From the NCBI RefSeq assembly GCF_017834145.1, contig NZ_JAFIDA010000001.1, positions 620,001-684,000 of the forward strand: DNA of 64,000 bases, read 5' to 3'. The position numbers were made by a program, and so were the translations under genes. The notes under the pieces are model-generated. The model saw only the letters and a program-made list of their open reading frames with translations, had not been told where the DNA came from and ran no database searches. The stretch comes from Leucobacter exalbidus. Its GTDB lineage: Bacteria > Actinomycetota > Actinomycetes > Actinomycetales > Microbacteriaceae. Shown piece by piece: positions 4,386 to 52,070 of the stretch; within the stretch, counting starts at the first letter, position 1, and every line of letters starts with the position of its first letter.

Positions 4386-5990
4386 TTAGTGGTCGCCCTG
4401 CTCGATTTCACCCTTGGTGGGAGGAACAATGCGATCCTCGAAGAACCAGCGGCTGAAACCTGCGCGCAGACGCTGACCGAATGAGATTCGGCCGTTGTCA
4501 TCGGGGCGCAGCATGAGCGGTGCGTAGTCGTGGTAGCTCACGAGCTCCCACTGCTCGTACGACTCGAGAGGCTTGTGTACCTCAACGAACTCGCCACCGG
4601 GCAGCTGAACGATGCGGCCCGACTCGTAGCCGTGCAGCGCAATCGCGCGGTCCTTCTTCTGCAGACCGAGGCAGATGCGCTTCGCGAGGAAGTACGCAAT
4701 GATCGGGCCGAGGAAGAGCAGGGCCTGGAGCGCGTGGATGACGCCCTCCATGGACAGCTGGAAGTGCGTTGCCATGATGTCGGAGCTTGCGCCGGCCCAC
4801 ATCACTGCGTAGAACGTGACACCAGCTGCACCGATTGCGGTGCGGGTGGGGGCGTTACGCGGGCGGTCGAGCAGGTGGTGCTCACGCTTGTCGCCGGTGA
4901 CCCACGCTTCAATGAAGGGGTAGATCATGACGATGACGATGAAGATACCGATGATGATCAGCGGCAGCAGCATGTTCCAAGACCAGGTGTAGCCGAACCA
5001 CTCGGTCTCAAGCCCCGGCGGTACGAGGCGCAGCATGCCATCGGCAAAACCGATGTACCAGTCAGGCTGCGTACCTGCCGACACCGGTGAGGGGTCGTAG
5101 GGGCCGTATGCCCAAATGGCGTTAATTCCGAAGATCGACGCGATGAGCACGATCACACCGAAGACGATGAAGAAGAAGCCGCCAGCCTTCGCCGCGTACA
5201 CGGGAAGAACGGGGAAGCCTACAACGTTCTGCTGCGTCTTACCGGGGCCGGGGTACTGCGTGTGCTTGTGGATGACCACAAACGCGAGGTGCAGCGCCAC
5301 GAACAGAATCACGAGTGCGGGAAGCAACATGATGTGCAGCATGTAGAGGCGGCCGACAATGTCGGTGCCCGGGAACTCGCCACCGAAGAACAGGAACGAG
5401 AAGAACGTGCCGACAACCGGGATTGCCTTGACGATGCCGTCAATAATGCGCAGACCGTTACCCGACAGCACGTCATCGGGAAGTGAGTAGCCAGTGAAGC
5501 CCTCTGCCATTGCGAGGATGAACAGTACGAAACCGATCACCCAGTTGAGCTCACGGGGCTTGCGGAACGCACCCGTGAAGAAGATGCGCAGCATGTGCAG
5601 GCCGATCGAGGCCACGAACAGCAGTGCAGCCCAGTGGTGTACCTGACGCATCAGCAGACCGCCGCGCACCGAGAAGGAGATATCGAGCGTCGACGCCATA
5701 GCGGCCGACATCTCAATGCCCTTCATCGGAACGTAGGGGCCGGTGTAGACGGTCTCAACCATTGACGCCTGGAAGAACAGGGTCAGGAAGGTACCCGAGA
5801 GCAGGATGACGATGAAGCTGTACAGCGCCACCTCTCCCAGCAGGAATGACCAGTGGTCAGGAAAGACCTTGCGGCCAAATTCCTTGACGACGCCACCAAT
5901 CTTGGTGCGATCGTCGATATACGTAGCCGCGGCTGAAGTGAAACGGCTTGAGCCGTTCTTAGCCGGGGTCTCAGTTACGGTGCTGCTCAC
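4386..5990 (-). CDS. qcrB: Cytochrome bc1 complex cytochrome b subunit
   Basis: The 534-residue membrane core of the actinobacterial menaquinol:cytochrome c reductase, which oxidises menaquinol and passes electrons to the Rieske centre. The b-haem histidines are visible in QVHHWAALLF (118/119) with H132, and in LHIMLLP (H219) with H234. The quinol-site segment reads PDWYIGF, the form common in actinobacteria. The long C-terminal extension is typical of the group. It overlaps the end of qcrA by 4 bp and ends the operon. Confidence 0.95.
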   Translation of the reverse strand: MSSTVTETPAKNGSSRFTSAAATYIDDRTKIGGVVKEFGRKVFPDHWSFLLGEVALYSFIVILLSGTFLTLFFQASMVETVYTGPYVPMKGIEMSAAMASTLDISFSVRGGLLMRQVHHWAALLFVASIGLHMLRIFFTGAFRKPRELNWVIGFVLFILAMAEGFTGYSLPDDVLSGNGLRIIDGIVKAIPVVGTFFSFLFFGGEFPGTDIVGRLYMLHIMLLPALVILFVALHLAFVVIHKHTQYPGPGKTQQNVVGFPVLPVYAAKAGGFFFIVFGVIVLIASIFGINAIWAYGPYDPSPVSAGTQPDWYIGFADGMLRLVPPGLETEWFGYTWSWNMLLPLIIIGIFIVIVMIYPFIEAWVTGDKREHHLLDRPRNAPTRTAIGAAGVTFYAVMWAGASSDIMATHFQLSMEGVIHALQALLFLGPIIAYFLAKRICLGLQKKDRAIALHGYESGRIVQLPGGEFVEVHKPLESYEQWELVSYHDYAPLMLRPDDNGRISFGQRLRAGFSRWFFEDRIVPPTKGEIEQGDH

Positions 5991-7123
5991 TTGAGGCGCT
6001 CCCAGTAGCTCGGGCCGACAGGTTCATGGAAATCGCTCTGAGCGACGAGGTAGCCCTCTTCGTCGACCGTGATGGGCAGCTGAGGCAGCGGCCGCTTCGC
6101 GGGTCCAAAGATCACCTTCGCGTGCTCAGAAACATCGAACTGCGACTGGTGGCAGGGGCAAAGAAGGTGGTGCGTGTGCTGCTCGTAGAGAGCAACGGGG
6201 CAACCCACGTGCGTGCAGACCTTCGAGTACGCGACGATGCCGTCATACGACCAGCTCTCGCGCTCAGGAAGCTCGTTCAGCTCAGACTGATCCAGACGCA
6301 TCAGCAGCACGATGGCCTTAGCCTTCGCGTCGAGGAAGTTCTCGCTGCCGCCACGCTCTTCAGCGTTGAGGTGCTCAAAGTCGTGGTGGTTCAGCGTCTC
6401 GGGGATGACGTGGAACGCCGACCCGATCGTGACTTCACTTGCCTTGATGGGCACACCGGAGGGGTCGCGCGCCAGGCGCATACCCTTGGTCCACATCGTG
6501 TGCTTTGCCAGCTCTACGGGATCCTGATCCTGGGGGGCAAGACCACGCAGCAGCGTGATGCCAGGGAGCGGGAACGCGATGAGCGCACCGAGGAGGCTGT
6601 TACGCACGAGCGAGCGACGTGAGAAGCCCGACTCTTCGTTCGAGACGGTGAAGACGTCGGCCGCGGCCTGCATCGTTTCTTCATCGCTCGGCACCGGGTG
6701 ACGCATATCGATGGACTCGTGATCCGCCATCAGTGCCTTGCCCCAGTGGACCGCACCGATACCCACGGCGAGCAGCGCAAGCGCCATGCCGAGGCCCACG
6801 AAGAGCGTGTGGAGCCGGATCGCCATCATCTCGCCCGTTTCAATGGGGAAGAACATGTAGGCGAGTACGGCGCCGAGGCTGCCCGCGATCGAGATGTAGA
6901 AGAGCGAGTAGACGACGCGCTCTTGGCGCTTCGCCTTCTGCGGATCGAGATCCGTTACGCGCTTGCGGTGCGGGGGAAGGCCCGGATTCTGCACGGCGTC
7001 TGATGAAATAACGGCGGTACCCGCCGATGCCACATCAACGTCGTGGCTCTGGGCGGCGACAACGGCGTCGCCGCCGCTGTTCTTCGCTTCCTCTGCCATG
7101 TTGCTCCTTGACTCCTGACTCAT
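5987..7123 (-). CDS. qcrA: Cytochrome bc1 complex Rieske iron-sulfur subunit
   Basis: A 378-residue Rieske protein. The [2Fe-2S] ligands lie in CTHVGC (from about residue 303) and CPCHQS (about 321-326). As in other actinobacteria the N-terminal half carries several membrane helices (VVYSLFYISIAGSLG, LFVGLGMALALLAV and one near FPLPGITLLRG) rather than a single anchor. It moves electrons from menaquinol in QcrB to the c-haems of QcrC. It lies between qcrC and qcrB and shares the 4-bp stop/start overlap with qcrB, indicating translational coupling. Confidence 0.95.
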   Translation of the reverse strand: MSQESRSNMAEEAKNSGGDAVVAAQSHDVDVASAGTAVISSDAVQNPGLPPHRKRVTDLDPQKAKRQERVVYSLFYISIAGSLGAVLAYMFFPIETGEMMAIRLHTLFVGLGMALALLAVGIGAVHWGKALMADHESIDMRHPVPSDEETMQAAADVFTVSNEESGFSRRSLVRNSLLGALIAFPLPGITLLRGLAPQDQDPVELAKHTMWTKGMRLARDPSGVPIKASEVTIGSAFHVIPETLNHHDFEHLNAEERGGSENFLDAKAKAIVLLMRLDQSELNELPERESWSYDGIVAYSKVCTHVGCPVALYEQHTHHLLCPCHQSQFDVSEHAKVIFGPAKRPLPQLPITVDEEGYLVAQSDFHEPVGPSYWERLK

Positions 7124-7143: not shown

Positions 7144-7953
7144 TTAGTTCGACTTCGCGGTCACCCAGACGGTGAGACCGACGACTGCACCCAGGCCGAT
7201 GACCCAGATGAACAGACCCTCGGCAACCGGGCCAATTGACCCGAGTGACATGCCGCCAACGGCGGGCTGGTTCTCGATGTACTTGAGGTACGAAATAATG
7301 TCGGCCTTGTTCTGCGGCGAGATGTTCGCATCGCTGAACACCGGCATGTTCTGCGGGCCGGTGACCATTGCCTCGTAGATGTGCGTGGGAGCAACACCGG
7401 TCAGAGCAGGTGCGAACTTGCCCTCGGTGAGTGCGCCGCCAACTGCAGCAACGTTGTGGCACATGGCGCAGTTGATCCGGAACAGATCGCCGCCATTTGC
7501 AATGCCCTCGTCGGAGCTATCAGCCTGCACGAACTGCGAATCAGGCAGCGAGGGGCCGGGGCCCAGCGAAGCCACGTACGCGGCCATCTGCAGGGTCTGC
7601 TCCTCGGTAAACTGCTGCGGCTTCACCATGCCCTGGGGGCCCTGGAAGGCGAGCGGCATACGGCCGGTGCCCACCTGGAAGTTCACCGACGCAGCGCCGG
7701 CGCCGATCAGCGACGGGCCGTCAGGGGTGCCCTCTGAGCCCATGCCGTGGCACGTAGCGCAGTTTGCACCGAAGAGCTTTTCTCCGGCCTCAATAGTCGC
7801 GGGCGACTCGAGGTCGATCTCAGCGGTTGCCGAGGTCTGGCTGAAGCCGGTGTATGCGGCGCCCGTTACAAGCAGGCCAACTCCGACGAGTGCTGCGGTT
7901 GCGAGCGGGTGCCGGCGACCTGACTTGCGAAGGTTCTTCTTAGCGCGAGCCAT
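7144..7953 (-). CDS. qcrC: Cytochrome bc1 complex dihaem cytochrome c subunit
   Basis: A 269-residue dihaem cytochrome c with CATCH at 65-69 and CAMCH at 162-166; methionine ligands are probable in GRMPLAF and QNMPVFS. An N-terminal membrane segment (LATAALVGVGLLVTGAAY) and a C-terminal one (FIWVIGLGAVVGLTVWV) fix it to the membrane with the haems outside. In actinobacteria this subunit replaces a soluble cytochrome c and hands electrons directly to CtaC in a bc1-aa3 supercomplex. It follows ctaE by 21 bp counted from the second (original) ctaE stop. Confidence 0.95.
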   Translation of the reverse strand: MARAKKNLRKSGRRHPLATAALVGVGLLVTGAAYTGFSQTSATAEIDLESPATIEAGEKLFGANCATCHGMGSEGTPDGPSLIGAGAASVNFQVGTGRMPLAFQGPQGMVKPQQFTEEQTLQMAAYVASLGPGPSLPDSQFVQADSSDEGIANGGDLFRINCAMCHNVAAVGGALTEGKFAPALTGVAPTHIYEAMVTGPQNMPVFSDANISPQNKADIISYLKYIENQPAVGGMSLGSIGPVAEGLFIWVIGLGAVVGLTVWVTAKSN

Positions 7954-7974
7954 GATGGCGATAACTCCTGACCC

Positions 7975-8061
7975 CTACTTGAGGACGTAAATGATGATGA
8001 ACAGGATGATCCACACAATGTCGACGAAGTGCCAGTAGTAGGACACGACGACAGCAGTGGT
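7975..8061 (-). pseudogene. ctaE: Stranded C-terminal tail of ctaE (last membrane helix)
   Basis: Directly after the TAG at 8062-8064 the same frame continues for 28 codons to a second TAG at 7975-7977, reading TTAVVVSYYWHFVDIVWI and then a hydrophobic run ending YVLK. The YYWHFVDIVW segment is the invariant C-terminal helix of cytochrome oxidase subunit III. This tail therefore belongs to ctaE; it has no start codon or ribosome site of its own and is lost if the TAG acts as a stop. Confidence 0.85.
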
Positions 8062-8604
8062 CTATTCCTTCTGCGTGAAGTTCTTAGCCGCGTAGAGGCG
8101 ACCAATCACCAGCAGGAAGGCCACGAGGCCCAGCGACACGTGAATGCCGTGGAAGCCCGTGGTCATGTAGAAGGCAGAACCGTACGGGTCACTTGCGAGT
8201 GTGATGCCTTCAGAAACGAAGGTTGCATACTCGAAAGACTGACCGGCGACGAAGACAGCTCCCATGAAGAACGTGAGGTAGAACCATTCGACGGTTCCCC
8301 AGTTCTTCGGGCCGCGGCCGATAGCACGTGGCTGGTGACGCTCTGCCGCGAACACGCCCGCCTGGGCAGTGAACGAGGAAGCAACCAGGATCAACGTGTT
8401 GATCAGTGCGAACGTGAAGTTGTGCTTAGCGGTCTGCTCAGCCCACAGCTCGGGATTCATGGCACGCAGCGTGAAGTAGATCGCGAAGAGCCCCGCGAAG
8501 AACATGACCTCGCTGCCGAGCCACACGATCGTGCCGACGGCGACGAGATTCGGTCGCTTCACCGTTGGCACGGCTGACTTGGTATTCATAGTGGTCGTAG
8601 TCAC
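8062..8604 (-). CDS. ctaE: Cytochrome c oxidase subunit III, cut short by in-frame TAG
   Basis: Subunit III of the aa3 oxidase; actinobacterial versions are about 205 residues. Here 180 residues run to KNFTQKE and then a TAG, although the frame carries on with the missing helix (see 7975-8061), so the intact gene would be 7975-8604 and 209 residues. Recognisable parts are the first helix (SEVMFFAGLFAIYFTLR), the middle helices and FHGIHVSLGLVAFLLV. It is the first gene of the ctaE-qcrCAB operon. The TAG may be a real nonsense mutation or a one-base sequence error; a single change restores the gene. Confidence 0.88.
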   Translation of the reverse strand: MTTTTMNTKSAVPTVKRPNLVAVGTIVWLGSEVMFFAGLFAIYFTLRAMNPELWAEQTAKHNFTFALINTLILVASSFTAQAGVFAAERHQPRAIGRGPKNWGTVEWFYLTFFMGAVFVAGQSFEYATFVSEGITLASDPYGSAFYMTTGFHGIHVSLGLVAFLLVIGRLYAAKNFTQKE

Positions 8605-8767
8605 CCCTCCATTATGGCTGAAAGTTTCGTGTGCGTTTTCACTTGAAGCGGGCGCGCCGAACTTTCTGCGAGTTTCCTCACAAGCCTATCGGCAAACACC
8701 CTCGTAACTGTATTCGTGTGGCGGGTGTCGTTTCGGATGCCGCGAAGAAACTTCGAAGATCGATAAG

Positions 8768-9832
8768 ATGAAGGTCATGATCGACGAGCAAACCTGGCCC
8801 ACCATCCTCACTAATCTGCTCGCGGGCGATGATCTCAGCGTCTCGCAGGCCGAGTGGGCAATGTCACGGTTTATGAAGGGTGACGCCTCGGGCGCACAGA
8901 TTGGCGCCTTCCTGGTGGCGCTGCAGTCGAAGGGCACGACCGTTGACGAGGTCATCGGCTTTCGTGACGCGATCTTGCAGGAGGCACTCCCCCTCGCGCT
9001 CCCCGCGATGTCACTCGACATTGTGGGCACGGGCGGTGACCGCTTCGGCACCGTCAACATTTCGACGATGGCCTCCATTATCTCGGCGGCCTCAGGCGTG
9101 CCCGTCGTAAAGCATGGCAACCGCGCGGCGAGCAGCCTCTCTGGCTCCTCCGATGTGCTCGGTGCCCTCGGTATTGACCTCACCCTCGATGCGGCTCATC
9201 TTGAGCGCACCTTCGAGCAGGCCGGCATTGCGTTTGTGCACGCCGCACACTTCCTCCCCGGCTTCCGCCACGTGGCCAGCGCCCGCAAGGACCTGGGCAT
9301 CCCCACCGTGTTCAACTTCCTCGGACCGCTCTGCAACCCGGTGCGCCCCGAGGCATCGGCCGTCGGCGTCGCCGACATCAATAAGATCCCGATCTTTGTG
9401 GGCGTCTTCCGCCTGCGCGGCGCCTCGGCGCTGGTCTTCCGCGGCGATGACGGCCTCGACGAGCTCACGACCACGGGTCACTCAAGGCTCTGGGAAGTCA
9501 CGCGCGGCGGTCTCACCGAGCACGACATCGATCCCCGCGATCTGGGCATCCCCCGCGCGCAGATGCAGGATCTCATTGGCGGCACCCCCGAAGAGAACGC
9601 GCTCGTGGTGCGCCGCGTACTCGGCGGCGAAAAGGGCCCCGTGCGCGACATCGTGCTACTCAATGCCGCAGCTGGCATGGTGGCATACGACCTCGCGGCT
9701 CGCCCCGAGAGCGCCGATACACCGCTGCTCGAGCGCCTCGCAGCGAAGCTCGTCGTCGCAGCCGACACCATCGACTCTGGAGCTGGCGAGCGCAAGCTTG
9801 CGGCGTGGGCCGAGGCGGCCAGCGCGGCATAA
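8768..9832 (+). CDS. trpD: Anthranilate phosphoribosyltransferase
   Basis: A 354-residue enzyme joining anthranilate to PRPP in the second step of tryptophan synthesis. The PRPP-binding glycine loop reads GTGGDRFGTVNIS, followed by the conserved KHGNRAASS and, further on, FNFLGPLCNP. The start could be ATG 8768 or ATG 8777; neither has a strong ribosome site. It stands alone, divergent from ctaE, with no other trp gene next to it, as is common in this group where trpD is unlinked. A strong hairpin follows. Confidence 0.93.
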   Translation: MKVMIDEQTWPTILTNLLAGDDLSVSQAEWAMSRFMKGDASGAQIGAFLVALQSKGTTVDEVIGFRDAILQEALPLALPAMSLDIVGTGGDRFGTVNISTMASIISAASGVPVVKHGNRAASSLSGSSDVLGALGIDLTLDAAHLERTFEQAGIAFVHAAHFLPGFRHVASARKDLGIPTVFNFLGPLCNPVRPEASAVGVADINKIPIFVGVFRLRGASALVFRGDDGLDELTTTGHSRLWEVTRGGLTEHDIDPRDLGIPRAQMQDLIGGTPEENALVVRRVLGGEKGPVRDIVLLNAAAGMVAYDLAARPESADTPLLERLAAKLVVAADTIDSGAGERKLAAWAEAASAA

Positions 9833-10757: not shown

Positions 10758-11183
10758 TTAGCGGGCGAAAACGCCGCGGTAGTACTCGTACACCCAGCCG
10801 ACCACACCGATTGCCACGAGGGGAATGGTGAGGAAGGAGAGCCAGAACTGGAACCCAACAGCCAAACCAAGCATCACGATTGAGCAACCGAATGCGAGGA
10901 ATACGGGCCACCAGCTCCACGGGCTGAACTCGCCGAGCTCAGGATCCGCGTCATTGATGTCAGCCTCAAGCTGATCCTGAGGGGTGTCGCCGCCACCCTG
11001 CTTCTTGATGACGAGCATCAAGTAGAAGGCAATGAAGCCCGTCAGGCCGCCACCGAGCACGAGGGCAGTAGTACCGGCCCACTCGACGTAGCCGTGAGTG
11101 ATGAAGTTCCAGATGACGTAAGTCGCTGCAACCACCACGAAGTACGCGGTGAGGATTGTGAAGATAACTGCGTTAGCCTTCAT
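10758..11183 (-). CDS. ctaF: Cytochrome c oxidase subunit IV (actinobacterial type)
   Basis: A 141-residue membrane protein with four hydrophobic helices: AVIFTILTAYFVVVAATYVIW, TALVLGGGLTGFIAFYLM, WWPVFLAFGCSIVMLGLAV and LSFLTIPLVAIGVVGWVYEY. Size, helix count and position after ctaD identify the small actinobacterial subunit IV, which stabilises the CtaC-CtaD core. The hydrophilic loop between helices 2 and 3 contains the usual acidic DADPELGEFSPWSWWP stretch. It lies 19 bp after ctaD. Confidence 0.93.
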   Translation of the reverse strand: MKANAVIFTILTAYFVVVAATYVIWNFITHGYVEWAGTTALVLGGGLTGFIAFYLMLVIKKQGGGDTPQDQLEADINDADPELGEFSPWSWWPVFLAFGCSIVMLGLAVGFQFWLSFLTIPLVAIGVVGWVYEYYRGVFAR

Positions 11184-11202: not shown

Positions 11203-12840
<1,638 letters not shown>

Positions 12841-12856
12841 TATTCTGCCTTACCCC

Positions 12857-13732
12857 TTAGTACTGGTTCTCGTTCTGGGCCTTGGCTTCGTCACCGTAGA
12901 AGTGCTCCTGGTTCGGGTTGTACTCCACGCTCACCTGCCCAGTGTTGCCTGCGTCACGCAGCGACTTCACATACGCGTCGTACTCGTCCTGCTCAACCAC
13001 GTGAACTTCAAAGAGCATCATTGAGTGGTATTCGCCACACAGCTCAGCACACTTACCCATGAACGTGCCAGTCTTCTCTGGCGTAATGCTCATGTAGTTG
13101 GTCTGGCCCGGGATCATGTCCTTCTTGTACAAGAACTCCACAACCCAGAACGAGTGGATTACGTCACGGGTCTCAAGGCGCAACTCGGTGGTCTTACCCA
13201 CCGGCAGGTAGAGAACAGGCATGGTATCTGCCGTGGCCTCTCCCTCGTTGTCGGTTTGCACCTGAACACCCTGGAAGTAGACGTCATCATTTACGTAGTT
13301 GAAGTCCCACGCCCAGCGCTTGCCCACTACCTCAACCACATTTTCAGGGTTGTCGTAGCGCGCTTCGATCGATGCCTGCTCCTGTGCGGTGAACGCAAAG
13401 AAGCCGAGGACCAAGAACACGGGGACAACCGTGAAGAAGGTCTCGATCGGCATGTTGTACCGCATCTGCACGGGCAGGCCGGTCTGGCCCTTCCGGCGAC
13501 GGTAGGCGATAGTCGCCCAGATGATCAAGCCCCAGGTGATTGCACCAATAATTAGCAGCACAATCCAGGAGGTCACCCAAAGACCGGTGATCCCGTCTGT
13601 GTGGTTGGTTGCACCCTCAGAGCCGGCGGGCAAAAAGCCGCGCTTCTGCTCAGGGGTGCAGCCCGCGAGCAGCAGGGCTGCCGAGAGCGCGACCGGAGCC
13701 GCGACCCATTTCATTCGACGATTGGAACGCAC
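12857..13732 (-). CDS. ctaC: Cytochrome c oxidase subunit II (CuA lipoprotein)
   Basis: Start chosen at GTG 13732, seven bases after AAAGG, giving 291 residues beginning MRSNRRMKWVAAP. A lipoprotein signal follows with lipobox LLAGC, then two membrane helices (VTSWIVLLIIGAITWGLIIW and FFTVVPVFLVLGFFAF). The CuA centre is in the exposed C-terminal domain: CAELCGEYHSMMLF. It receives electrons from QcrC and passes them to CtaD. It is the first gene of the ctaC-ctaD-ctaF run; the promoter must lie in 13733-13871. Confidence 0.94.
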   Translation of the reverse strand: MRSNRRMKWVAAPVALSAALLLAGCTPEQKRGFLPAGSEGATNHTDGITGLWVTSWIVLLIIGAITWGLIIWATIAYRRRKGQTGLPVQMRYNMPIETFFTVVPVFLVLGFFAFTAQEQASIEARYDNPENVVEVVGKRWAWDFNYVNDDVYFQGVQVQTDNEGEATADTMPVLYLPVGKTTELRLETRDVIHSFWVVEFLYKKDMIPGQTNYMSITPEKTGTFMGKCAELCGEYHSMMLFEVHVVEQDEYDAYVKSLRDAGNTGQVSVEYNPNQEHFYGDEAKAQNENQY

Positions 13733-13871
13733 CGCATACCTTTCGAAACATTTCTCGCCGCCCATTACCGGGCAGGCGAAGCTGATTACTCCCTGTTAGC
13801 TTAGCGGGAAGCTGAGCGTTCCCCGAACCACGCGCGAGTGTCGCGCTGAGATTTTCGGGGTAATTTGCGTG

Positions 13872-46950: not shown

Positions 46951-48156
46951 TCAGGGTCGCTGTCGACGTGCGCGCGCACCGAACCTATCGAGTGCTGCCA
47001 GCACTTCAGGTGTGTGCCAAATGCGGTTGCGCTTGTAGTCGTTCGTCTGGACGAGGGCGCCAGCCGCCACCAGTCGCTCGATCGTGGCCGTTGCAGAGAC
47101 GAACGAGACACCAAGTTCGTCAGCCACAATCTGGGCCGTGATGACCGGCTGACGTAGGAGCAGCTCGCGAATGGCGACACCTGCGGAACCACGTCGAGCG
47201 GGAGCCGTGTTAGCCCAACCAGCGGCGATCGCCTGGAGCTCCTCGACAAGGGTGCGACCGTTGTTGATGCCCGCAAACACGGCATCTGCGAAAGCTAAGA
47301 TGATCGGGCTCGGGTCGCCATTTCGGTAGCTCGTGAGCGCACGGAAGTAACCGTCGGTATCGCTGAGGAGTCCTGCCGATACAGGTACGGTGACGTTCCT
47401 GGTCAGGCGGCCGTGACGGAGCATACTGTGCAACAGCGCACGACCTGTGCGACCATTGCCGTCAGAGAACGGGTGGATCGTCTCAAACTGGGCATGCGCC
47501 AGAGCCGCGTGAGCGAGCACGGGCAGATCAGTGCGGGCGCAGAACTGCACGAGGTCGGCCATCAGGCTAGGAACGCGATCGTTATGGGGCGGTACAAACG
47601 AAGCCGCGTGAGGTGAGATGCTTCCGCCACCGATCCATACTGGTTCCTCTCGGAACTTGCCCGTGTACTCCGGCGCGCTTTCATACAGCAGCGCGCGCTG
47701 CATCGCGATGATCGCATCTTCGTTGATGCTCTCGCTCAGTTCCAGCGCGGCTTGCATCGCACGCACGTTCCCAACAACCAGACGAGCGTTGCCAGACTTG
47801 GCAGCGTCCAGTTCAGCCAGGGCGACCTGCTTGGCGCTCGAGGTCAGTTTCTCCACCTCGGAGCTGGAGGCTGACTCGGTACGAAGTAACACCGAAGCGA
47901 ACGGTGCCGTGATGGAACCCACCTCGGAATCGAAACGCGCCAGTTCCGCGCTGGCATCGTCAGCAGCCGCCAGTGTTTCAGCGTCCAGGTGCACGTCTAG
48001 GTCTGCGATCAGCGGCAGGACGGCCGCCTGGTAGTCCCCGCGCGCACGCAGTGACTGACGCCGCGAGGTGACTACCGTGGGGTCTCGCGCCCATGGATGC
48101 GGCTCGGTGGTGATCGCCGGCCAGGCTGGGGGCTGAGCGGAGTTAACCTGTGACAT
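46951..48156 (-). CDS. Fic-domain AMPylase with N-terminal inhibitory helix
   Basis: 401 residues from ATG 48156. The catalytic motif HPFSDGNGRTGRA starts at H228. About 130 residues earlier lies TESASSSEVEKL, matching the (S/T)xxxE core of the autoinhibitory helix with S98 and E102, but the following position is lysine instead of Gly/Asn. A C-terminal winged helix (ITAQIVADELGVSFVSATATIERL) follows the Fic domain, as in Fic proteins that regulate their own gene. It would transfer AMP to hydroxyl groups of target proteins. It lies inside the repeat-bracketed block. Confidence 0.9.
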   Translation of the reverse strand: MSQVNSAQPPAWPAITTEPHPWARDPTVVTSRRQSLRARGDYQAAVLPLIADLDVHLDAETLAAADDASAELARFDSEVGSITAPFASVLLRTESASSSEVEKLTSSAKQVALAELDAAKSGNARLVVGNVRAMQAALELSESINEDAIIAMQRALLYESAPEYTGKFREEPVWIGGGSISPHAASFVPPHNDRVPSLMADLVQFCARTDLPVLAHAALAHAQFETIHPFSDGNGRTGRALLHSMLRHGRLTRNVTVPVSAGLLSDTDGYFRALTSYRNGDPSPIILAFADAVFAGINNGRTLVEELQAIAAGWANTAPARRGSAGVAIRELLLRQPVITAQIVADELGVSFVSATATIERLVAAGALVQTNDYKRNRIWHTPEVLAALDRFGARARRQRP

Positions 48157-48322
48157 GAAACAATCATACCCAAGCTTAGGCGCGTAACCTTTAATAAGAT
48201 GAGACTGCATTCAAGGAAAAACAAAAACCGCCGTGTCAGAAACCACTCTGAGTAACAGTGGGTCGAAACGAAATCTCCTGCACCTCATCTGAACTACTCC
48301 CCGGAAGTTGGACTGAGAAATG

Positions 48323-48404
48323 GCGATGCTGGGGCTGCGGGAGCACTGATCAGAGTTCGGTCATACTGATCATGCCTCCAGTATGTGATCACTAGCGTGC
48401 GCTG
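48323..48404 (+). repeat. 82-bp direct repeat, copy 2 (relic of a hydrolase 3' end)
   Basis: Related without gaps to 44914-44995. It even keeps the end of the coding frame: MAMLGLREH followed by TGA, matching AMLGLQEH and TGA of the intact hydrolase gene. Nothing upstream of 48323 resembles the rest of that gene. Confidence 0.75.
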
Positions 48405-48413
48405 CAGAGCGAC

Positions 48414-48803
48414 CTAGCGCCCGCTTGATGCGACGAGCTCGATCTCCACGCGTGCACCGAGCGGCAGACCCACCACTGCGACTGTCGTTCGGGCCGGATA
48501 GGGGGTGTTGAAGATCGTCCCGTAGACACTGTTCATCGCCGCGAAGTCATCCATATCAACCAGATAAACATTCACCTTGATCACATCATCGAGTGTTCGG
48601 CCAGCGGCGGTGAGAACGGATTCAAGATTTGCGAACACTTGGTGAGTTTGAGCCGCTACATCACCGTCAATCAGCTTCCCGGTTGCCGGGTCGATCGGTG
48701 TCTGCCCTGAGAGGAACAGCATTCCGCCACCACCGAGTGCCGCATGCGAGTACGGCCCAACAGGCTCAGGGGCACGCGGGTCGGAGACAGTCGTTCGAGT
48801 CAT
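48414..48803 (-). CDS. RidA-family protein
   Basis: 129 residues of the RidA/YjgF/UK114 family. The family trimer hydrolyses reactive enamine/imine intermediates to ketoacids and ammonia. Seen are the opening PEPVGPYSHAALGGGGMLFLSGQ, VFANLESVLTAAGRTLDDVIKVNVYL and the C-terminal YPARTTVAVVGLPLGARVEIE with the arginine that binds carboxylate. It stands alone beside the second direct repeat. Confidence 0.92.
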   Translation of the reverse strand: MTRTTVSDPRAPEPVGPYSHAALGGGGMLFLSGQTPIDPATGKLIDGDVAAQTHQVFANLESVLTAAGRTLDDVIKVNVYLVDMDDFAAMNSVYGTIFNTPYPARTTVAVVGLPLGARVEIELVASSGR

Positions 48804-48977
48804 GCCAGCAGCCTAGCGCCGGAGGCCGTCATCAAGTCTGCTGGCGAAAAGATCACCTATAAATCTAGTTAAGGGAGTACTAGCAGCTTGTCATGCGGCA
48901 GTACCCGATCACTTCCAGCCTTGCGATCACACGAGCCTGTGTGGGGAAGTGTGTCTGACCGACTAGACGAGCAGAGG

Positions 48978-49013
48978 TCACTTCATCGGCGAAGCGACCT
49001 CGAAGGTAGTCAT
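48978..49013 (-). pseudogene. Relic of hipA start codons
   Basis: The stop of the HipB-like gene overlaps ATG 49013 as ATGA, the normal hipB-hipA junction, and the frame reads MTTFEVASPMK before a TGA. MTT(F/L)EV is the way HipA proteins of this type begin. The rest of the kinase gene is gone. Confidence 0.5.
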
Positions 49014-49315
49014 CGCGCGCGCTTCTTCGTGAGGCTTCCGGCACACAACCTGACGATGTCGCTGCCGAGCAGGTCGATTGCTTCGACGGTTTGGTCGAGC
49101 ACGCCGAGCGCCCGAAGCACCTGAGTGACGTTGCGGAAGCTTACGCCCGGATCCCCGGTCTCGATTTTGCGCAGAGTGTCGCGCGTGATGCCGGCGCGCT
49201 CGGCTACCTGCTGCGCTGTCAAGCCGAGTATCATGTACCACCCCCGCATCCCCACCTCGACGAACCCCCGCTTCAGGCGCGAATCGATCGGCGCGAGGTT
49301 TCTGGCGTTGATCAC
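49010..49315 (-). CDS. Orphan HipB-type antitoxin/regulator
   Basis: Up to 101 residues from GTG 49315. The XRE helix-turn-helix is GLTAQQVAERAGITRDTLRK followed by IETGDPGVSFRNVTQVLRALGVLD, which closely follows HipB proteins of actinobacteria, with the usual basic end TKKRAR. The true N terminus is uncertain because no good ribosome site precedes the GTG; a stop lies in frame about 14 codons upstream. The downstream hipA is reduced to 12 codons, so this is an antitoxin without toxin. Confidence 0.78.
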   Translation of the reverse strand: MINARNLAPIDSRLKRGFVEVGMRGWYMILGLTAQQVAERAGITRDTLRKIETGDPGVSFRNVTQVLRALGVLDQTVEAIDLLGSDIVRLCAGSLTKKRAR

Positions 49316-49418
49316 GCTGAAGATCGATTCGTCGGGCGCCCTCCTCGAAGCGCCTCAGAACACCTGACTCAGCAACGAAATCGCTCACACGAACAGCTTC
49401 GGCGCGATCACCGCAACC

Positions 49419-49964
49419 TCATTCAGCAGCTCTCACTTCCACCTGCATTTTGGCAATCCGGCGCTTCGTGTATTCGATCATACTGACGAAGTATTGGCCG
49501 AAGCTATCGAAAGTATCGATGAGCTCACCCTCAGCAATCCAGAACACCTTGGGTGCGACGACGCCGTCCTCGATCAACATCACGAACACGTCACCCTGCT
49601 CGTTACTGGCAGCGATCGGCAGAAGTTCCTCGGTTGATCTCCCGAGTTCTTCCAAGAATTCTGGCGCGTATTCGAATGCCTCGAATGCTGTGTCGCGGAG
49701 GTCTCCTGCGACTAATCCGGTGGTACCGAGCAAAGTCACTTCCTGATGGAAACAATTCCAGCCGTCAGCGAAACCAAGAAAGCCGCGATGCTCTTTATCA
49801 AGGCGCACCGTCAGCGCTTGTTCCACCTGGTGGATCAGCTCCTCGGTCGCCGCCACCTCGGGCAGGTGGTTGGGGAATAATTCGTTCGGATCCCACGCGG
49901 CCAGGTTCTGTTTCGTCATCACCATCTCGACAATCGGCGGACGCCAGTCTTCGATCAGGATCAT
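49419..49964 (-). CDS. SMI1/KNR4 (SUKH) family protein, probable immunity protein
   Basis: 181 residues. SUKH features are an N-terminal helix, EELIHQVEQALTVRLDKEHRGFLGFADGWN and the following LGTTGLVAGDL strand, then LLPIAASNEQGDVFVML, which corresponds to the conserved lipid/peptide-binding strand pair. SUKH proteins often neutralise contact-dependent nuclease toxins. No toxin or secretion gene is nearby. GGAGGG lies 11 bases before ATG 49964; later ATG codons at MVMTK are alternatives. Confidence 0.72.
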   Translation of the reverse strand: MILIEDWRPPIVEMVMTKQNLAAWDPNELFPNHLPEVAATEELIHQVEQALTVRLDKEHRGFLGFADGWNCFHQEVTLLGTTGLVAGDLRDTAFEAFEYAPEFLEELGRSTEELLPIAASNEQGDVFVMLIEDGVVAPKVFWIAEGELIDTFDSFGQYFVSMIEYTKRRIAKMQVEVRAAE

Positions 49965-50501
49965 GTTAGATACAACCCTCCGGTAAGCATGCGCGGATCG
50001 CTCGATAAAATTACTATCTTCCTAAACGATACCGGCCTGATCCAACGGCTACGCTACCTACACTATGGAGCATCAGTCTCCGTAGGGCTGCCCGTGCTCC
50101 AACTGTCAGCCAGTTTCAACGTAGCGTTCGCGTCCCACAGGACACGAAAAGAACGACCCAAGGACACTCCCTTACGCTACCTATCACACTGGTATAAGTG
50201 GCTCACAGGAGCGAGCTGCGTACAGAAGGCAAGTGAGCTGCGAGGGCTAGGTCTCGTCACTTCTGCTAGCACGGATTGTGCCCACGAACCGGATAGCAGA
50301 TGCGCTACTGGCCGAGCTGGTGCGGTCCGTGCGGAAGGCCGTCGACCAGACTTGTTACAGCCGCAGAGGCGAGACATTAAACCGAAATTCCACGACGTCA
50401 CCGCACGTACCCACCCCCGAGAACCCGGTGAATCCCCCGAAATGTCGACCCTACTTTGGCCTTGCAATTGTCGAGCTCATCGAACGAGAAAGCAACCCAG
50501 G
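49965..50501. other. Non-coding stretch with gene debris
   Basis: No convincing gene on either strand: the open frames here (for example 49989-50528 on plus and 50177-50467 on minus) have no recognisable domain, poor codon use and no ribosome site. It contains one copy of a dispersed repeat (50373-50420). It looks like decayed mobile or accessory DNA. Confidence 0.55.
50373..50420 (-). repeat. Dispersed ~46-bp repeat, copy A
   Basis: On the minus strand it reads as codons for TCGDVVEFRFNVS; the plus strand carries ATTAAACCGAAATTCCAC. Related copies lie at 51873, 52862 and 53925. Confidence 0.55.
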
Positions 50502-50531
50502 TTGACAGCCCCTTACTTAGCAACGTAGGTT
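50502..50531 (+). promoter_or_regulatory. Promoter of the HTH/ClpN-SRPBCC pair, probably leaderless
   Basis: A perfect TTGACA at 50502-50507, an 18-bp spacer and TAGGTT at 50526-50531 fit a housekeeping-sigma promoter. The ATG of the next gene is 7 bases after the -10 box, so transcription should begin at or next to the start codon. Confidence 0.6.
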
Positions 50532-50537
50532 GACTGC

Positions 50538-50783
50538 ATGGAGTCGTCGCGGATCGCAGCAGTAGCAGCCAATACCAGCGACCCGAAAGCAGGACTGCGG
50601 GCCGTAGCGTCGTTGCGCGTTCTCGCCGACACTTTGGAGCTTCAGCAGGTCGAGGCTGGGTTGCGTTCGGGCATGAGTTGGCAGGAGATCGCCGATGCGC
50701 TCGGAGTGACGCGACAAGCCGCCCACAAAAAGCACTCCAAAAGAATTGACCCCGCGATCTCGACGCCCAGGAGGAACAAATGA
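50538..50783 (+). CDS. Small HTH regulator coupled to ClpN-SRPBCC gene
   Basis: 81 residues. Residues ~35-68 (LQQVEAGLRSGMSWQEIADALGVTRQAAHKKHSKRI) are a sigma-like helix-turn-helix; the N terminus is a simple helix. No ribosome site precedes it, and the promoter position implies a leaderless message. Its TGA overlaps the next ATG as ATGA. It probably regulates this two-gene operon; similar small HTH genes often precede ClpN-only genes in actinobacteria, by my recollection. Confidence 0.75.
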   Translation: MESSRIAAVAANTSDPKAGLRAVASLRVLADTLELQQVEAGLRSGMSWQEIADALGVTRQAAHKKHSKRIDPAISTPRRNK

Positions 50784-51769
50784 ACAAACTCGTCCGCGCC
50801 GCTCAAACCAGCCAATCGCTTTCCCTGGCCGCCATGGAGGAAGCATCCCGGCTCGGGCTCCGCGAAGCCGATATCGACCACCTGTTCCTCGCATTGGTCA
50901 TCAACGACCAGTCCGCCGGCCACGCACTGCGCGAGCTGGGTATCGACATTGATAGCGCCCGTCTCGCCGTCGAGGAACAACGCAATGCACAGCTGACCTC
51001 ACTCGGCATCGAGGCGTCATTCCCCGAGGCCGGGCGCATCGTGTTCCAGGAGACAGATGGGTATGAGTGGACTCTTCGTGCTCGGAACCTCATCGCGAAG
51101 TCCAGCAGCAAAGGCAAGCCAGGCGACGCTGCCAGCGTTCTCCGGGAACTCGTCGCAGAACCTAGCGGTCTGATCACAGATATCCTCGGCCGCCTCGGCA
51201 CGACTTCCGATGTGCTCATCGAATGCCTCGATCGGGTCGACTCGCCCTCGATGAAGTCCATGCCGGCCGCAGCGACAGCGAAGGGGCGGCTCACGGGAGC
51301 GACTGAGACTTTCGTATCCGCATCGCTGGACGAGGTGTGGGTATTCCTCACAGATCCCGCACGCATCCCCGAGTGGGAACCGAGCATCGGCGTCCTCGAT
51401 CAAACCAGTCAAGAAGTAACGCCAGGTACAACCTGGGAGGGCTTTGCACCCGCAACGTATCCAGACGGCAAGCCTGTGAAAATCAAGCCTCAGTTTCGTC
51501 GACGCAGTGTTGAGCTCATCGCAATTCACCAACCGGACAGGATCGCATGGAGCTTCGGATATCCCGACGTCGCACAAGGCAATTCGGTTCTGACTGAATT
51601 CGCCTTGGTGAACGCGGTCGGTGGCACACAGGTACGGATCAGTAGGTCCTGGTCGCGACGCCAAGGGTGGCGAGGACTTGTCGCTTGGCCGCTGCGTCCA
51701 ATCCAGAAGTTCCTGGTGTGGATCACCCTATTCCAGACCGGCAGCGCGATCAGCCGAGCATTTCGCTAA
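50780..51769 (+). CDS. ClpN-domain protein fused to an SRPBCC domain
   Basis: 329 residues. Residues 1-70 (MNKLVRAAQTSQSLSLAAME, EADIDHLFLALVINDQSAGHALRELG) and about 90-150 (YEWTLRARNLIAKSSSKGKP, SVLRELVAEPSGLITDILGRLG) are the two repeats of the Clp N-terminal substrate-binding domain, without any AAA+ module. From about residue 169 to the end is an SRPBCC/polyketide-cyclase-like domain (ATETFVSASLDEVWVFLTDP, ARIPEWEPSIGVLD), a fold that binds hydrophobic ligands. It may be a ligand-controlled adaptor or decoy for ClpC. Four-base overlap with the HTH gene. Confidence 0.8.
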   Translation: MNKLVRAAQTSQSLSLAAMEEASRLGLREADIDHLFLALVINDQSAGHALRELGIDIDSARLAVEEQRNAQLTSLGIEASFPEAGRIVFQETDGYEWTLRARNLIAKSSSKGKPGDAASVLRELVAEPSGLITDILGRLGTTSDVLIECLDRVDSPSMKSMPAAATAKGRLTGATETFVSASLDEVWVFLTDPARIPEWEPSIGVLDQTSQEVTPGTTWEGFAPATYPDGKPVKIKPQFRRRSVELIAIHQPDRIAWSFGYPDVAQGNSVLTEFALVNAVGGTQVRISRSWSRRQGWRGLVAWPLRPIQKFLVWITLFQTGSAISRAFR

Positions 51770-51812
51770 CCCCAGGCCGCGGTGATTCGTTTGCTGGCCG
51801 CACATAAATCGA

Positions 51813-51850
51813 GTGCCCGGATCTCCCACGGGCAGGTCCGGGCACTCGAA
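51813..51850 (+). terminator. Hairpin after the ClpN-SRPBCC gene
   Basis: CGAGTGCCCGGATCTCCCAC and then GGGCAGGTCCGGGCACTCG form a stem of about 12 bp (CGAGTGCCCGGA with TCCGGGCACTCG) with a longer loop. It follows the stop codon by about 45 bp. Confidence 0.6.
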
Positions 51851-51872
51851 CCAGATGCTGAAGCGAAACGCG

Positions 51873-51922
51873 ATTAAACGTTAAACCGAAACTCCACCGC
51901 GTGCCCACACATACCAACCTCA
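51873..51922 (-). repeat. Dispersed ~46-bp repeat, copy B
   Basis: On the minus strand it reads MCGHAVEFRFNV followed by a stop. By hand count 35 of 46 positions match copy C at 52862-52910. Confidence 0.6.
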
Positions 51923-52070
51923 GGCCGCAACGCATTTCATGTGACCCGCGACGGCGACAACGACTGTTCCCCTGCTCGGCAGGTTGAAGTGCCATACACA
52001 ATCACTCATCGTCAAGAGACCATCAGTGCTGACCGGAACAAACTAGAAGCTGTCCACGTTCAATCTGGAT

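Follow-up and report, generated by a model that had tools for sequence, protein, structure and literature searches.

Is the gene for subunit III of the cytochrome aa3 oxidase (ctaE) broken in Leucobacter exalbidus, is the stop codon inside it translated, or is one base of the assembly wrong? The question is raised by a window of 64,000 nucleotides (the whole stretch of DNA that was analysed), in which an internal TAG at 8064-8062 on the minus strand cuts ctaE, which starts with GTG at 8604, to 180 amino acids ending in ...NFTQKE, as read from the sequence and the list of open reading frames (ORFs). Past this TAG the read-through translation stays open for 28 further codons, TTAVVVSYYWHFVDIVWIILFIIIYVLK, until a second TAG at 7977-7975. 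An earlier note on this DNA had described an in-frame TAG at 8062-8064 after QKE, with the same frame running on to the TAG at 7975, and these coordinates are right. The features in question are the following.

8062..8604, minus strand: ctaE, cytochrome aa3 oxidase subunit III, shortened frame of 180 amino acids (NF050119, 235.8 bits, cut-off 190)
8062..8064, minus strand: in-frame TAG, where relatives have GAG or GAA (Glu) and more distant loci GCN (Ala), from the codon comparison
7975..8061, minus strand: conserved 3' tail of ctaE, 28 codons with the last transmembrane helix (YYWHFVDIVW...), then an ordinary TAG, from the translation and the relatives

Against NF050119 (actinobacterial CtaE, 190 positions) the shortened product passes the curated cut-off and is matched to position 161, whereas an intact relative is matched to position 190 and scores 295.2 bits. 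The complete CtaE C-terminus with its last helix is absent from the 180-residue product, and the helix is encoded after the TAG. The predicted effect of the internal TAG is loss of the last helix of CtaE; the residue that it replaces is not itself essential, because relatives have Glu or Ala there. A second copy of the gene is ruled out: the whole genome (one contig of 3,181,803 bases, 99.93% complete) holds one match to PF00510 (COX3), with one TAG inside it, and therefore a single ctaE. A scan of 7900-8800 for promoter and terminator patterns gave nothing useful.

We compared the interrupted codon with its counterparts in 78 related loci (29 from genomes of the genus and 49 from a second search; the two sets share genomes, so that these are not 78 independent genomes). 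Apart from L082, which is cut short by the end of its contig, every locus is readable here, and the 77 carry GAG (57), GAA (2) or an alanine codon (18), with no stop among them. A single substitution from GAG, the commonest codon, would explain the TAG. The check on close relatives that the earlier note had proposed therefore returns a sense codon throughout (77 of 77 readable loci), and TAC, its example of what might be hidden under the TAG, is unlikely given the Glu and Ala codons found. The best solved relatives of CtaE, with an intact relative as query, are 6adq and 6hwh, with 7q21 and 7qhm further down; in three solved CtaE chains, judged by eye from the printed alignments, an alanine is aligned with the TAG position. 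The part of ctaE before the stop is matched in 51 of the 54 genus genomes (its own included, and with a query blind to stops after residue 180), at up to 93% identity among genus-mates. In the family as a whole, COX3 is matched in 388 of 398 genomes, and among the matches listed (the best-scoring ones) the only internal stop is that of this genome. Two family genomes, G384 (99% complete) and G331 (93% complete), have no COX3 match, and may be natural aa3-lacking genomes or reflect assembly gaps.

The tail beyond the stop bears on the age of the change. It is identical, residue for residue or nearly so, to the CtaE of 29 relatives, so that the conserved helix recognized in the earlier note is no chance similarity. 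Over its 28 codons, 20 relatives differ from this genome at 5-10 synonymous and 0-4 non-synonymous positions (by a rough counting method); the four nearest by identity show 5-8 synonymous differences against 1 non-synonymous, and the same four differ by 0.42-0.49 synonymous changes per site in the part of ctaE before the stop. The only features of ctaE unique to this genome are V173A and the stop itself, with none in the tail. The TAG would thus be recent, or else an error, because a tail left unconstrained since the species split would be expected to hold many amino-acid changes. As in a nonsense allele, there is a single stop, the frame after it is intact and conserved, and no second functional copy is present.

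Our preferred reading, to which we give a probability of roughly 0.55, is a recent single-base nonsense mutation in the only ctaE of the sequenced clone (this figure and the grades that we attach to the alternatives are judgements and were not computed). The mutated gene would yield a subunit III of 180 residues that keeps four of CtaE's five helices; the aa3 branch would then be impaired in assembly, in its contact with the bc1 complex or in stability during turnover, and respiration would proceed through the intact cytochrome bd oxidase. Beyond what is observed (the stop, the single copy, the undecayed tail and cydABDC), we infer a real base, a non-functional or unstable CtaE and respiration carried by cytochrome bd. 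We favour a nonsense allele because none of the 77 related loci has a stop at this codon, the assembly looks accurate and cydABDC is intact.

The main competitor is a mistake of base calling or assembly at the TAG, or a minority variant of the stock, with a normal CtaE in the living strain, a serious possibility to which we give somewhat less than an even chance. One wrong base would also account for the fact that this genome stands alone with an internal stop among the family matches listed, where no other member has one; it would leave a tail with no unique residues and mostly synonymous differences, as observed; and errors strike core genes as easily as dispensable ones. It is likewise consistent with the remaining bc1-aa3 genes (listed below), all open frames that seem to be under constraint in so far as this was examined.

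Against an error stands the apparent accuracy of the assembly, which we evaluated by aligning ORFs taken from parts of two related genomes with a 604 kb section of this one (240001-844000), covering 233,892 bases (110 and 182 gene comparisons, with 44,350 and 67,406 aligned residues, respectively). The scan detects stops flanked by similarity and breaks between adjacent frames, and large deletions would escape it. The comparisons were filtered by codon composition; a scan without this filter gave stops in 77 of 147 comparisons, which came from ORFs in shadow frames and from relatives' ORFs starting too far upstream. Ten rows with stops passed the filter, two of them being ctaE itself (one for each relative) and eight coming from five other queries, none of which is a broken gene: for q49 (three rows), q235 and q228 this genome has open coding-like frames of 1034, 307 and 238 codons, the stops lying before the open frame or at its very start (leader sequence), and q619 (two rows) and q520 are antisense to coding-like frames. 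In another scan with the codon-composition filter, reading the alignments of eight flagged rows (r61, r153, r170, r284, r454, r651, r411 and r525) revealed no broken real gene, and the remaining flagged rows, of partial coverage, are without a frameshift partner. By the criteria of the analysis, then, the bases compared contain no frameshift candidate, and across the 234 kb covered no real gene other than ctaE has a nonsense codon, a result that counts against a base error although it does not measure substitution errors directly. An error-ridden assembly is ruled out by the lack of frameshift candidates. Because neither frameshifts nor other stops in real genes were found, the assembly is free of widespread indels and the genome, over the part compared, is not in decay; an isolated wrong base is possible. 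Taking these observations together, we slightly favour a real nonsense allele over a base error.

On the minus strand of the window the genes of the pathway form two groups separated by other genes, ctaE-qcrC-qcrA-qcrB from 8604 to 4386 and ctaC-ctaD-ctaF from 13765 to 10758.

12857..13765, minus strand: ctaC, open frame (named from the ORF reading)
11203..12840, minus strand: ctaD, open frame, the only full COX1 match of the genome (ORF list and COX1 search)
10758..11183, minus strand: ctaF, open frame (named from the ORF reading; 11 relatives aligned)
7144..7953, minus strand: qcrC, open frame, downstream in the ctaE-qcrCAB order (named from the ORF reading; relatives aligned)
5987..7123, minus strand: qcrA (Rieske), open frame (named from the ORF reading; relatives aligned)
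4386..5990, minus strand: qcrB, open frame (named from the ORF reading; relatives aligned)

That the remaining oxidase and bc1 genes of the window look intact, as had been noted before, is borne out by these open frames. A second COX1 match is weak, below the cut-off, and falls in ctaC; the match to the CtaA family, whose enzyme makes heme A, is free of internal stops. Residues unique to this genome number 0 in qcrB, 3 in qcrA and 2 in qcrC (against 20 relatives), 1 in ctaF (11 relatives) and 0 in ctaD (4 relatives), all within the range of the relatives themselves; ctaC had 1 relative, and the small numbers for ctaD, ctaC and ctaF reflect the limits of the stretches compared. Besides the ctaE stop, the unique-residue counts of qcrB, qcrA, qcrC, ctaF and ctaD give no sign of a lost aa3 branch. 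Elsewhere in the window, positions 48001-52000 form the 4-kb bin of lowest G+C (0.585, against 0.607-0.683 in the others), perhaps acquired DNA.

Could a strain with this allele live? The search for cydAB elsewhere in the genome, which the earlier note had called for, found cydA, cydB, cydD and cydC as open frames at L116:5755-11840 (cydA named by family match, the other three by ORF reading and order), and cydABDC is intact. Across the genus cydA occurs in 50 of 54 genomes (43 of 45 among those of good quality). In Corynebacterium glutamicum, according to PMC7337898, the supercomplex genes are ctaD, ctaCF and ctaE-qcrCAB and the other branch is cytochrome bd; a mutant of that species with no functional bc1-aa3 supercomplex is described in PMC7026483 as growing on glucose, though defectively, and as unable to grow on acetate alone. 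The expected damage is suggested by the review PMC8361435, in which CtaE represents five helices of subunit III and takes part, with QcrB, in the III-IV contact, and according to which many oxidases become inactive during turnover once subunit III has been removed. Because cydABDC is intact, cydA is present in 50 of the 54 genomes and the C. glutamicum mutant grows on glucose, a strain with this allele should be alive, with its aa3 branch weakened or lost. The earlier expectation that a damaged oxidase would be remarkable in this group is weakened on the same grounds. Two genus genomes, G013 and G047 (both more than 90% complete), have ctaE and no cydA match; these should withstand the loss of aa3 only if they possess a further oxidase.

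The other readings survive far less well. Translation beyond the TAG, whether by read-through or by restart, is very unlikely when the two are taken jointly, and it is highly improbable that the stop is real and fixed while a CtaE of four helices, either by itself or together with a last-helix peptide translated from its own start, gives a working aa3 oxidase (in that case the last helix of subunit III would be dispensable or separable). Read-through by suppression or recoding, yielding full-length CtaE, would fit the open and conserved frame beyond the TAG, but that conservation is equally expected from a recent mutation, and of 53 tRNA hits ARAGORN called 52, none with a CUA anticodon. Furthermore, ctaE ordinarily ends in TAG, both here and in 58 of the 77 readable related loci (the other 19 use TAA; these loci overlap), and none of the 77 has an in-frame amber at this codon. 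Recoding or suppression of the TAG is accordingly unlikely, and we give full-length CtaE made in this way a very slight chance. Of the three outcomes proposed at the outset in the earlier note, damage and error thus stay candidates, and read-through is disfavoured by the lack of a CUA anticodon among the tRNA hits called and by the everyday use of TAG as terminator.

The one tRNA hit left uncalled by ARAGORN, a tRNA-like stretch of 55 bases (G000:C1:2703619-2703673), lies beside a tRNA-Glu/Asp/Phe cluster and is possibly a tRNA remnant. In addition, a single strand at G000:C1:60848-68312, outside the window, carries three genes for tRNA-Met (CAT) that score identically with Rfam; they lie about 3.5 and 3.9 kb apart and could reflect tandem duplication or repeated insertions.

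The restart would use the following codon.

8044..8046, minus strand: GTG, speculative restart of a short helix peptide, 15 nt after the TAG; the Val GTG is also in 29 relatives

A restart at this GTG (8046) is conceivable from the presence of the codon in frame and an AAGGA about 19 nt ahead of it, and PMC8361435 offers a precedent for a subunit in two pieces, the mycobacterial counterparts of helices 1-2 being a separate protein, CtaF; but the AAGGA is in our judgement too distant to serve well as a ribosome-binding site, relatives use the same GTG simply as a Val codon and there is no sign of adaptation to splitting, so that a separate last-helix peptide joining the complex is the least credible of all.

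Should the preferred reading, a recent nonsense mutation, be right, the strain is possibly without a proton-pumping oxidase and would be useful for the study of cytochrome bd dependence in an aerobic actinobacterium; should the base be an error, the case shows why reads need checking before a core gene is annotated as a pseudogene. In comparison with known systems, the locus resembles other actinobacterial CtaE genes (NF050119) in its sequence before the stop, its tail sequence and the gene order ctaE-qcrCAB, and differs from them in the in-frame TAG that removes the last helix (28 residues). With an ordinary nonsense allele or pseudogene it shares one substitution, a single copy and an undecayed tail, but here the gene is a core respiratory one and the allele a putative one. 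As in the delta-qcr mutants of C. glutamicum, which have no functional bc1-aa3 supercomplex (PMC7026483), the cell would be left with cytochrome bd as its oxidase; those mutants are engineered deletions, whereas here a single subunit is truncated, naturally or as an artefact. Real loss or sequencing error, the event is in either case an ordinary one of a known kind, and it leaves current understanding unchanged.
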